Shown: positions 26,111 to 31,030 of the stretch, piece by piece
Numbering within the stretch: position 1 is the stretch's first letter
Layout: every line of letters begins with the position of its first letter
Assembly: GCA_026398595.1 (NCBI GenBank)
Contig: JAPLSO010000051.1
Coordinates: 1-64,000 of the forward strand
Source of the DNA: Spirochaetota bacterium
GTDB taxonomy: Bacteria; Spirochaetota; Spirochaetia; Treponematales; Rectinemataceae
Direction of reading: 5' to 3'
DNA: 64,000 nt
The notes under the pieces: generated by a model
Told to the model about the DNA's origin: nothing
The model's input: only the letters and a program-made list of their open reading frames with translations
The model's database searches: none
Program-made: the position numbers and the translations under genes

Positions 26111-27853
26111 CTAGTGAAGGTCGAGAGCCTTGGTGGCTATTTTATCCAGGACCTGTGAGACGAATGCCCCAAGTTCGACGCCATTCTCCTGCCTTCCGTC
26201 CCTAAACCGCACCGAAACCTTGCTCTCATCCTTTTCCCGCTGGCCCACAATCAGCATATAGGGGATCTTCTGGTTCTGGGCGTCGCGGATTTTCGCGTTC
26301 ATGCGCTCGTCGGAGAGCATGGGTAAAGCTCGGATCCCCGCGGACTTGAGCTTGGCCGTCACCTGCTTTGCATAGTCGACGAAGTCGGCGCCCACGGGAA
26401 TGACAGCGGCCTGGTCAGGCATGAGCCATACGGGAAAGGCGCCCGCTGTATGCTCGAGGTAGACGCCGAAGAAGCGCTCGATGGAACCTAAAAGGGCGCG
26501 GTGCACCATGTAGGGCCGCTTGCGCTGGCCGTCGGCGTCGACATAGGTCATGTCGAAGCGCTCGGGTTCGTTGAAGTCGAACTGGATGGTGGTCAGCTGC
26601 CACTCGCGGCCGATGGCGTCCTTGACCTTGAGGTCGATTTTTGGGCCATAGAAGGCGCCGCCGCCTTCGTCGATCTCGTAGGCAAGGCCTTCCTTGTCCA
26701 CGGCCTTGCGGAGGCTCTCGAGGGCAGTGCTCCACATCTCGGGAGCGCCAACCGAATCCTCGGGGTTGGAGGGCTTGGTAGCCAGGTATGCCTTGATCTC
26801 CTTGAAGCCGAGGGTTTTGTGCATGAAGAGAGAGAAGCGCAGGACCTCGGCGATCTCGCCCTCGATCTGGTCTGGCGTGCAGATGATGTGGGCGTCGTCC
26901 TGGGTGAAGCCGCGCACGCGCATGAGGCCATGGAGGGTGCCCGACCGCTCGTAGCGATAGACGGTGCCCAGCTCCGCCCAGCGCAGGGGCAGATCGCGGT
27001 AGGAGTGGTTGTTGGTGTTGTAGATCATGATATGGAAGGGGCAGTTCATCGGCTTGATGTAGTAGTCGTCCTCGTCGATCTTCATAGGCGAGTACATGCC
27101 CGCCTTGTAGAAGCCCAAGTGGCCCGAGGTTTCCCAGAGCCAGCTCTTGCCGATATGGGGAGTGAAGAGGATTTCGTAGCCGTTCTTGTAGTGCTCGTCG
27201 CGCCACCAATTCTCGAGGGCGACGCGGAAGCGGCCCCCCTTGGGGTGCCAGTAAATGAGGCCGGGGCCCGCTTCCTCGTGGGTCGAGAAGAGATCGAGTT
27301 CCCTGCCCAGCTTGCGGTTGTCGCGCTTCTCGGCTTCCTCGAGAAGCTTGAGGTGGGCCTCCAGGGCGGCCTTACTCTCAAAGGCCCAGGCGTAGATGCG
27401 GGTGAGCATGGGGCGCTTCTCGTCGCCGCGCCAGTAGGCACCGGCCACTGCCCTGAGCTTGAAGGCGTCGGGACGTATCTCCCTGGTGTTCTCAACGTGG
27501 GGGCCCCTGCAGAGGTCGGTGAAGCCGTCCTGGGTGTAGATGGAGATAGTTCCATCCTCAAGTCCGTCGATGAGTTCGAGCTTGAATGGCTGATCGGCGA
27601 AGATCGCCTTCGCTTCTTCCCTGGATATTTCCTTGCGTTCGAAGGTATGGCCTCCCGTGATGATCCTGCGCATCTCTTTCTCGATGCCGGGCAGATCCTC
27701 GGCAGCTATCGCCCTGGGCAGGAGAAAGTCGTAGTAGAATCCATCCTCGATGGCCGGCCCTATCGCGAACTGGGTGCCCGGATAGAGGTGGAGAACGGCT
27801 TCGGCCATAACGTGGGCCGCCGAATGCCGCACTTTGTTGACATCGATCGCCAT
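26111..27853 (-). CDS. thrS: threonyl-tRNA synthetase lacking the TGS domain
   Basis: Charges tRNA-Thr with threonine. 580 residues against about 640 in enzymes with a TGS domain. The protein begins almost directly at the editing domain (HSAAHVMAEAVLHLYPG; FYYDFLLPRA; DLCRGPHVENT), followed by the class II core (KPMNCPFHIMIY, RYERSGTLHGLMRVRGFTQDDAH, GRRWQ-like GREWQLTTIQFDF, HRALLGSIERF) and the anticodon-binding domain. ThrRS without TGS occurs in spirochaetes. The start at 27853 follows AAAGGAG; the frame extends to 27946 but that part is leader. A long structured leader with T-box features precedes it. Confidence 0.95.
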   Translation of the reverse strand: MAIDVNKVRHSAAHVMAEAVLHLYPGTQFAIGPAIEDGFYYDFLLPRAIAAEDLPGIEKEMRRIITGGHTFERKEISREEAKAIFADQPFKLELIDGLEDGTISIYTQDGFTDLCRGPHVENTREIRPDAFKLRAVAGAYWRGDEKRPMLTRIYAWAFESKAALEAHLKLLEEAEKRDNRKLGRELDLFSTHEEAGPGLIYWHPKGGRFRVALENWWRDEHYKNGYEILFTPHIGKSWLWETSGHLGFYKAGMYSPMKIDEDDYYIKPMNCPFHIMIYNTNNHSYRDLPLRWAELGTVYRYERSGTLHGLMRVRGFTQDDAHIICTPDQIEGEIAEVLRFSLFMHKTLGFKEIKAYLATKPSNPEDSVGAPEMWSTALESLRKAVDKEGLAYEIDEGGGAFYGPKIDLKVKDAIGREWQLTTIQFDFNEPERFDMTYVDADGQRKRPYMVHRALLGSIERFFGVYLEHTAGAFPVWLMPDQAAVIPVGADFVDYAKQVTAKLKSAGIRALPMLSDERMNAKIRDAQNQKIPYMLIVGQREKDESKVSVRFRDGRQENGVELGAFVSQVLDKIATKALDLH

Positions 27854-27904
27854 GGCAAGCTCCTTTCGCCGGGTCGGAGATTTCTCCGCCGGCAGGTTCC
27901 GGAA

Positions 27905-28269
27905 ACGACGAAGCCCCCGCCGGAATATGCCCGGACGGAAGCCCATGCTTCACGTAAGGACGAATTCCGTGGGGGCCTCGGGGAGGACTCCCCGCAAGGG
28001 AAAATCCCCGTCTCCTGGCCGCACGCCAATCCGCGGTGCCACCTTACTTCGGCTCCCCTCGACAGGGACCGCTCTCTTCGCCCTTGACGGCGGGCAGCCG
28101 GCCCCCGATACTCGCCCTCGGATCGGGGGTTTTCACGGAGACTGCTCGGGAGGGGTTTTCTTCGGTACCGTGCCGGGATCCTTTCAGCCTGAGGGCGCTT
28201 GGCGGCCCCGCGGGATCCCTCTCTGACGGCACGGCCTTAAGCCGAATACTCGTCTCCGTCGTTGCTTTC
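27905..28269 (-). promoter_or_regulatory. T-box leader (riboswitch) of thrS
   Basis: The roughly 400-base leader has no gene but has T-box hallmarks in order. Stem I base ACGGAGAC (28259-28252) pairs with GTCTCCGT (28142-28135). AGTA (28250-28247) fits the specifier-loop S-turn. GCCGTGCCG (28235-28227) pairs with CGGCACGGT (28175-28167), placing ACC, a Thr codon, at 28166-28164 as specifier. Stem III is CCCCCGAT/ATCGGGGG (28129-28122 and 28109-28102). The T-box sequence AAGGTGGCACCGCGG is at 28045-28031, with GCGGT (28072-28068) able to pair with ACCGC as antiterminator. GC-rich hairpins follow (GAGGCCCCC 27979-27971 with GGGGGCTTC 27918-27910) but with a poor T tract, so the choice between transcriptional and translational control is unresolved. 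Confidence 0.85.
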
Positions 28270-28275
28270 GTTTGA

Positions 28276-28305
28276 ATAATCCCACTTTGGGCGAGGATAT
28301 GTCAA
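28276..28305 (-). promoter_or_regulatory. promoter of the thrS T-box leader
   Basis: On the minus strand consensus TTGACA (28305-28300) is followed after 18 bases by GATTAT (28281-28276). The predicted start, near 28269, is about ten bases before the stem I helix of the T-box leader, which supports both calls. Confidence 0.6.
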
Positions 28306-28341
28306 GTGCCGGTCCTCGGGAGCCCAGCTATTCTGTGGACC

Positions 28342-28370
28342 TTGTTTATCCTGACTTTCATGGGTATGTT
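28342..28370 (+). promoter_or_regulatory. possible promoter of clpS-clpA-aat
   Basis: TTGTTT (28342-28347) and TATGTT (28365-28370) are 17 bases apart. The predicted start is only a few bases before, or at, the clpS ATG at 28380, which has no visible Shine-Dalgarno sequence. Confidence 0.4.
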
Positions 28371-28379
28371 TTATCCAGC

Positions 28380-28697
28380 ATGAGCGTATCACAACAGAGC
28401 GATGGGCAGACGGAGGCTATCGAGGAGACTACTCCTGTCCCTCAGGAACCCGAGGAGTACAGAGTCATCCTCCTCAACGACGATTTCACCACGATGGAGT
28501 TCGTCGTATCGATCCTGATGACGATTTTTCACAAGACCTTGCCGGAAGCGACGAAAATCATGATAGACGTCCATAGGAAAGGCAGGGGTAACGTAGGCGA
28601 GTACTCCTACGACATAGCGGCGACGAAGATAAATCAGGTGCATCTTCTCGCGAGGCAGATGGGCTTTCCGCTCAAGTGCACCATGGAGAGAGTCTAG
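28380..28697 (+). CDS. clpS: ATP-dependent Clp protease adaptor ClpS
   Basis: 105-residue adaptor that binds N-degron substrates and delivers them to ClpA-ClpP. The core YRVILLNDDFTTMEFVVSILM and VHRKGRGNVGEYSYDIAATKINQVHLLARQMGFPLKCTMERV cover the ClpS fold; the N-terminal 25 residues are a flexible acidic tail. The ATG at 28380 gives the family length; the frame runs up to 28272 but that would overlap the thrS promoter region. It lies two bases before clpA. Confidence 0.94.
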   Translation: MSVSQQSDGQTEAIEETTPVPQEPEEYRVILLNDDFTTMEFVVSILMTIFHKTLPEATKIMIDVHRKGRGNVGEYSYDIAATKINQVHLLARQMGFPLKCTMERV

Positions 28698-28699
28698 AT

Positions 28700-31030
28700 A
28701 TGAAGGTCAGTCAGGAAGTTCAGGCCGTTTTCAACGCGGCATACAACGAAGCCAAGCTTCGAAATCACGAATACCTCACTCCGGAGCACATCCTCTACGC
28801 AGGTTTGTCGTTCGAGAAGATCCGAGCTGTTTTCGAAGGCTGTGAAGCGGACACGGAACAGCTGAAGCGTGGCATAGAGGCTTACTTCGAACAGAAGGTT
28901 CCCGTGGTCCGAAACGCCGCCGAACCCGTGCAGACTTCGTCGTTCCAGGCCGTCATCGAGCGGGCCGTGATGCAGTCGCAGGCTTCGGGTAAGAACGAAG
29001 TGGAGATTTCCGACCTTGTGGTCTCCCTCTACGACGAGGAGAGGACCTATGCCGGATATTACCTCAGGAAAATCGGGATCAAGCGTCTCCAGCTCCTGGA
29101 GGTTCTCTCCCACGGGATCGATGACGGCGATGAGGATGATCCCCTCGGCGGGATGGACGAAGCCGAGTCCAAGCTCGAAGGCGAAGGCAAGGAGAGGAAA
29201 GGCTCGAAACCCAGCCCCCTCGAGCGCTTCGCCACCGACCTTACGGCCATGGCCCAGGCCGGCAAGCTCGAACCCGTCATCGGGTGGGAAGCCGAAATCG
29301 AGCGCACGATTCAGGTGCTCTGCAGGCGTCTCAAGAACAATCCCATCCATGTGGGTGACGCGGGCGTCGGCAAGACTGCCATCACGGAGGGTCTTGCCCA
29401 GCGAATCGTCGCGGGTCAGGTCCCTCCTCTTCTCAAGAACTACACGATCTACAACCTAGATATGGGAGCCCTCCTGGCGGGGACCAAGTTCAGGGGAGAT
29501 TTCGAGGATAGGGTGAAAAAGGTCGTCGATATTTTATTGAAGAAAGAAAAAGCCATACTCTTCATCGACGAGATTCACACTATCGTGGGAGCGGGCGCCG
29601 TGACAGGCGGTTCCATGGACGCTTCCAACCTCCTCAAGCCTGCCCTCACCTCGGGCAGGCTGCGATGCATCGGTTCGACGACCTACGACGAGTACAACAA
29701 GATTTTCGAGAAGGACAGAGCGCTCTCCCGGCGATTCCAGAAGATCGACATCGTCGAACCCACCCAAGCCGAGACTGTCGAGATCCTCAAGGGCCTGAAG
29801 TCCAAGTACGAGGAATACCACAAGGTCAGTTACTCGGAGGAAGCCCTCGAGGCTGCCGTGAGGCTTTCAGCCCAGTTCATCACCGAGCGGCATCTTCCCG
29901 ACAAGGCGAGCGATGTGATCGACGAGGCCGGCGCCAGGGCAAGGATGAACGCCTTCAAGCTTGGTGGCGATGTCGAGAATTCCCTGCTCCCGATAGGCTT
30001 GTCCGAGATCGAGATCGTCGTCGCGAAGATCGCCCGCATACCCGAGCGTTCCGTCACATCCTCGGAGAAGGAGAGACTGTCGGGGCTCGAGGCTTCCCTG
30101 AAAAAAGAAGTCTTCGGCCAGGACAGGGCGATTGACATCGTCGTCTCGGCGGTTAAACGCTCCAGGGCAGGCTTCAGGGCACCCGACAAGCCCGTGGCCA
30201 ATTTCCTCTTCGTGGGACCGACGGGCGTCGGCAAAACCGAACTCGCCCGCCAGCTCGCCAAGCAGATGGGGGTCGTCCTCCATCGCTACGACATGAGCGA
30301 ATACCAGGAAAAACACACGGTGTCCCGCCTCATCGGATCGCCCCCCGGCTACGTGGGCTATGAGGAAGGAGGGCTCCTCACCGACGCGATCAGGAAGACT
30401 CCCCACGCCGTCGTCCTCCTCGACGAGATCGAGAAGGCACACTCGGACATCTACAATATTCTGCTCCAGATCATGGATTACGCCACCCTCACGGATAATC
30501 AGGGAAGAAAGGCCGATTTCCGCAATGTCATCCTCATCATGACCAGCAACGCGGGCGCCAGGGAGGTAGGCAAGAACCTCATCGGCTTCGGAGAACGCTC
30601 GGTCACGGCAGAAGCCCTGGACGATGCGGTTGAACGGACCTTCACGCCCGAGTTCCGTAACCGCCTCGACGCCGTCGTCCACTTCGACAATCTCCCCATG
30701 GAGATGATCGAGAAGATCGTCGTTAAAACCCTCGATGATTTCAGGATCCAGTTGGCCGAAAAGAAGGTCGAGCTATCAACGACCGAGGCCGTCATCAAGC
30801 TGCTGGCTGAACGCGGCTATTCCAAGGAATTCGGCGCGCGAAACATAGGCAGGCTGGTCGAGGACAAGGTGAAATCCTTCTTCGTGGACGAAGTCCTCTT
30901 CGGCAGGCTAGAGCACGGAGGCCTCGTCAAGGCCGATGTCATCGACGGCGAGGTAGCCTTTACCGTCGAGCCGCCCGATCTCCCCGAACTCAAGGGGGTC
31001 CAGACGGCCGCGGAAAAGGCCGGAGCCTGA
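28700..31030 (+). CDS. clpA: ATP-dependent Clp protease ATP-binding subunit ClpA
   Basis: AAA+ unfoldase of 776 residues acting with ClpP. An N-terminal Clp repeat domain ([25 protein letters not shown]) is followed by an acidic linker (residues about 145-175) and two ATPase modules: the first has [13 protein letters not shown] and [13 protein letters not shown], the second [23 protein letters not shown] and the arginine-finger region [12 protein letters not shown]. There is no ClpB-type middle coiled coil, which together with adjacent clpS identifies ClpA. GGAGAG lies upstream of the ATG. ClpP is not in the window. Confidence 0.95.

Follow-up and report, generated by a model that had tools for sequence, protein, structure and literature searches.

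What kind of switch, if any, controls thrS in an uncultured spirochaete, and what does it read? The window analyzed here is a stretch of 64,000 nucleotides, and the region of interest lies on its minus strand (contig C22 of genome G000), with a promoter-like site on one side and thrS on the other. The original prediction had seen in this leader a T-box made up of a promoter, a stem I base helix, an AGTA of the S-turn type, an ACC triplet, a stem III hairpin and the sequence AAGGTGGCACCGCGG; all of these elements are present. In order of transcription, the parts of the locus are as follows.

28276 to 28305, minus: promoter-like site TTGACA-18-GATTAT with TG before the second hexamer (10/12 consensus; 0.2 sites expected in shuffles)
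28012 to 28271, minus: putative T-box leader (RF00230 full-model match)
28146 to 28266, minus: stem I, with base helix, GA/K-turn region, AGAGAG bulge and distal GGCTGAAAG loop (RF00230 alignment)
28250 to 28247, minus: S-turn AGTA in stem I (RF00230 alignment)
28154 to 28156, minus: specifier ACC (Thr) in the context GAA-A-ACC-C (alignment, conservation in relatives)
28085 to 28140, minus: stem II with S-turn (GUGAA...AGUA) and IIA/B element (RF00230 alignment)
28050 to 28071, minus: stem III hairpin with purine strings on either side (GAAGAGAG ... GAAG) (sequence, RF00230 alignment)
28045 to 28031, minus: T-box sequence AAGGTGGCACCGCGG (sequence, RF00230 alignment)
28028 to 28047, minus: 5' half of the antiterminator, comprising A1 GUAAGG (28047-28042), the bulge UGGCACC (28041-28035) and A2 GCGGAUU (28034-28028) (comparison)
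27954 to 27966, minus: 3' half of the antiterminator AAUUCGUCCUUAC, comprising AAUUCGU (A2) and CCUUAC (A1) (covariation)
27910 to 27979, minus: competing terminator-like hairpin whose 5' arm holds the antiterminator 3' half (-45.1 kcal/mol, z -5.2 against shuffles)
27900 to 27909, minus: poor U tract GUCGUUUCCG after the hairpin (sequence, consensus scan)
27860 to 27866, minus: ribosome-binding site AAAGGAG of thrS (sequence)
26111 to 27853, minus: thrS, threonine--tRNA ligase, 580 aa, start ATG 27853 (TIGR00418, E 1.8e-207)

From the promoter-like site, transcription is expected to start near 28269; TTGACA is also found upstream of the leaders of several relatives. The TIGR00418 match upholds thrS as the downstream target, and its start at ATG 27853 is backed by the alignment of relatives; a longer open reading frame from 27946 starts within the hairpin. 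Divergent from thrS are clpS and clpA (window 28272-31030), and a clpS-like gene is near thrS in many relatives of family f1. The clpS reading frame, as listed, runs at its 5' end into the T-box promoter, so clpS probably starts further in.

The RF00230 covariance model covers 28271-28012 of the minus strand from model position 1 to 219, that is, end to end. A T-box match of full length is thus obtained (E 1.1e-8), but its 45 bits fall short of the Rfam gathering score of 93 bits for this family, which is a curator's threshold and not a biological feature. Only seven genomes among 39 matching relatives reach that score, and three of the five matching genomes in a control set are also below it. 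When the whole 2.85-Mb assembly was searched, the thrS leader was the single RF00230 match (E 1.2e-8), and no other Rfam family matched the leader up to E 1. The stem I motifs recur in the leaders of relatives.

Which amino acid does the leader read? The pattern GAA-N-ACC-N-CTCC is present in 35 of 37 thrS leaders and ACC is constant in all 35, while the base before it can be A, G, C or T and the base after it A, C or G, just as a Thr(ACC) specifier would have it. As to the two exceptions, L025 reads CAAAAACCCCTCC at the specifier place, and stem I of L038 is outside the stretch taken. The codon ACC is read by a GGU anticodon. The genome has tRNA-Thr genes with the anticodons GGU, CGU and UGU, and so contains the tRNA that the original prediction called for, at G000:C18:74113-74185 (L084); its anticodon loop reads CATGGTAA and hence is missed by the pattern TTGGTAAG.

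The antiterminator had been foreseen from complementarity in the leader. It is indeed present and it covaries, but its true 3' half (27966-27954) and the hairpin that holds this half had been missed; the 3' half is some 60 nt downstream of the T-box sequence in the window. A candidate antiterminator limited to a local CCGC/GCGG pairing directly following the T-box sequence, taken from the short RF00230 model alignment, was replaced by the conserved long-looped pairing that emerged from comparison. For the covariation test 31 distinct leaders were used, each with its two antiterminator halves linked by a neutral spacer. In these, 98.5% of cells are paired, and 7 of the 13 pairs show double changes (22 cells), such as GUAAGG/CCUUAC becoming GCAAGG/CCUUGC; 500 shuffles gave no result as good. 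If the partner is shifted by one, two or three columns, pairing falls to 40-53%; the register was picked from the same sequences, which favors this shifted control, but that does not explain the double changes. UGGCACC forms a bulge of seven nucleotides that separates A1 from A2, as in T-boxes, and the G·U wobble in A2 is invariant (31 of 31 rows). This pair has been described as a steric sensor of the 3'-aminoacyl group (PMC7583486). As the antiterminator 3' half lies inside the hairpin 27979-27910, the two structures are mutually exclusive.

These parts suggest how the leader would work. The leader ACC would pair with tRNA-Thr at its GGU anticodon. Were this tRNA uncharged, its CCA end would pair with the UGG of the bulge and stabilize the antiterminator (28047-28028 with 27966-27954), so that transcription would continue into thrS. 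If it were charged, the hairpin 27979-27910 would take up the antiterminator 3' half and transcription would stop. We infer this charging-dependent switching from the sequence of the leader and its relatives.

Does the switch act on transcription or on translation? The observation that the downstream hairpin lacks a good T tract holds: the tail reads GUCGUUUCCG, and in a consensus scan for terminator-like sites none passes in the window. The minimum free energy of the whole leader (z -1.1) is uninformative by itself. The original prediction had gone on to suggest a translational output, that is, a T-box that in its OFF state buries the ribosome-binding site of thrS, and a fold in which the Shine-Dalgarno (SD) AGGA pairs with an upstream UCCU, the minimum free energy fold, speaks for it, as does the poor U tract. 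However, predicted SD accessibility in the window is about the same in the two states (0.54 OFF, 0.47 ON with the antiterminator imposed), that is, imposing the antiterminator brings no rise; 44 nt separate the end of the hairpin from the SD; and the homologous hairpins of relatives in the same family (e.g., L002-L008 and L010) end in U6-U8. Since the hairpins of these close relatives have such U tracts, the output of the window leader is likely to be transcription attenuation, and since the imposed antiterminator does not raise SD accessibility, termination is to be preferred by a good measure over blocked translation. A translational output of the window leader is unlikely, though it is the most serious of the alternatives. 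It draws some further support from relatives: three leaders that have no U tract (L027, L037 and L009) show predicted SD opening with the antiterminator imposed. In these three the output may conceivably have shifted from transcriptional to translational between lineages. Such opening is absent in other relatives without a U tract, and a translational output is possible in some relatives of this kind.

The contact between the T-box sequence and the tRNA acceptor end is unusual. All three tRNA-Thr species of the window genome have U73, and so does tRNA-Thr(GGU) in every relative whose gene was readable (one gene is cut at a contig end). The window T-box reads UGGC. Because its variable base N is a C that faces U73, the usual fourth pair between T-box and tRNA cannot form. 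Within the order, 34 of 37 thrS leaders have U at N; the exceptions are the window, with C, and L002 and L013, with A. Most genomes of family f13 have A or G there, and three have U. Pairing of N with base 73 is a usual, not a universal, T-box feature; TBDB records Watson-Crick pairing here "in a majority of the cases" (PMC7778990). From the sequences, the chances are about even that the thrS T-boxes of this order work without the fourth pair, using three pairs only and drawing specificity and stability from the remaining RNA. The steady mismatch of N with U73 offers a natural test of the weight of the fourth tRNA pair.

Could the window copy be a T-box in decay that has lost its switching, with N now C, an eroded U tract and a low model score? 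Its C at position N is unique among the 37 leaders, the tail after its hairpin is weak, and its 45 bits compare with 95-103 bits in the best relatives. Yet this copy keeps its specifier, its S-turn, the invariant G·U and every one of the 13 antiterminator pairs, its hairpin is much more stable than those of shuffled sequences, and relatives that score equally low retain the full architecture. Decay is accordingly improbable. That the leader is another kind of RNA element or a chance resemblance, as a score under the Rfam cut-off might suggest, can be dismissed almost entirely given its E-value, the lack of a competing Rfam family up to E 1, its place before thrS in dozens of genomes, and its conservation and covariation, the latter already contradicting the idea. 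Taken as a whole, the evidence bears out the original identification: RF00230 matches over its full length, ACC is conserved, the antiterminator covaries and is mutually exclusive with the hairpin, tRNA-Thr(GGU) is encoded in the genome, and thrS follows directly. The leader is very probably a tRNA-Thr-sensing T-box riboswitch that controls thrS.

How widespread is this arrangement? T-box matches occur in 39 of 59 related genomes (E <= 0.001). At the first 31 loci thrS is directly behind the T-box in 28, weaker-scoring places gave the same picture, and some three dozen relatives have this leader ahead of thrS. In a wider sample of Spirochaetota, 37 of 296 genomes (~12%) have a match, representing 25 of 134 genera, mostly at thrS. 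This sample contributed 24 new loci, 18 of which precede a thrS-like protein; the others precede genes resembling a solute symporter, an AMP-binding enzyme, or a tryptophanase or tyrosine phenol-lyase, these names coming from a reading of the sequences and not from a family search. The T-box is mostly absent from the Treponemataceae (f3). To judge by these predicted sites, the T-box is a common regulator of thrS in several spirochaete families.

T-boxes also stand before other genes in this phylum. High-scoring ones in family f10 (L141-L145, L249-L251) precede the symporter-, AMP-binding- and tryptophanase/tyrosine phenol-lyase-like genes, and in some of them UAC (Tyr) can be read at the specifier position. 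In genome G036 (contig C4; L042 / L016) a T-box with a U-tract terminator is followed by trpB, trpA and a DAHP synthase-like third gene; thrS of this genome is at another place, and no T-box core precedes it. In G017:C59 (L041:493-2433 / L012:1501-1751) aspS has a T-box upstream, with GAC (Asp) as its specifier and UGGC as its T-box sequence. tRNA-Asp usually has G73, with which UGGC would pair. No T-box pattern is present upstream of aspS in G009 (88% identical), G010 or the window genome, and the aspS T-box of G017 probably reflects a recent recruitment in which the specifier changed.

Where did the thrS T-box come from? A ThrS tree was built with FastTree from 119 rows among the matches listed, a biased sample; T-boxes were called by regular expression, with at least one doubtful case outside the spirochaetes (L230) and one miss (L013). 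Among the matches listed, the window ThrS is in a 40-row clade of Spirochaetota only, mostly T-box-bearing, which agrees with the spirochaete host proposed at the outset. Its sister rows among these matches, from Lentisphaerota, Kiritimatiellota, Verrucomicrobiota and one Elusimicrobiota, have no T-boxes, and a T-box-bearing branch of Chloroflexota comes next. The suggestion that the leader might point to transfer finds no backing here: thrS genes with T-boxes occur across the phylum, and with the window ThrS in a clade of Spirochaetota only, the tree gives no sign of recent horizontal transfer. Common ancestry or transfer in the distant past is possible, as thrS T-boxes with ACC specifiers were found in Anaerolineae (e.g., L173, L176, L179, L193). 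Spirochaetota have two clearly different types of ThrS (L053-L064, L023, L156, L162, L247), with T-boxes before both; two genomes of family f12, G239 and G272, have different types, each with a T-box. The spirochaete thrS T-boxes bear on the origin of T-boxes in general, which may have begun in Firmicutes and spread from there or may be more ancient.

The literature has so far placed T-boxes elsewhere. A 2008 survey recorded them in none of six Spirochaetes genomes (Table 3 of PMC2494555), and one of 2013 limited them to Firmicutes, Actinobacteria, Chloroflexi, Deinococcus-Thermus and a few deltaproteobacteria (Geobacter) (PMC3766115). We found no description of spirochaete T-boxes in the open-licence literature; the one mention, in PMC10319736, is the title of a cited work. 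Against this searchable literature the original suspicion of an under-described distribution is well founded. Since several spirochaete loci exceed the gathering score, database entries for them probably exist.

Among known systems, the leader most resembles the class I T-boxes of RF00230 (transcriptional, with a long stem I), with which it shares the S-turn, specifier loop, stem II, IIA/B element, stem III, UGGN-ACC bulge, A1/A2 antiterminator with invariant G·U, competing hairpin and an aminoacyl-tRNA synthetase target. It differs in its spirochaete host, in the C at N (U in most relatives) opposite U73 with no fourth pair, in the weak U tract of the window copy and in a score below gathering. 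The Anaerolineae (Chloroflexota) thrS T-boxes likewise have an ACC specifier and a related thrS downstream, but they carry UGGA, which would pair with U73, and short compact antiterminators. The translational class II T-boxes of Actinobacteria (ileS) share the same discriminator core (PMC7583486); these mostly have a short stem I without the distal contact to the tRNA elbow, whereas the window leader has a long stem I with an AGAGAG bulge and a distal loop. The spirochaete thrS T-box is thus not a new device but widens the known range of a well-known one.
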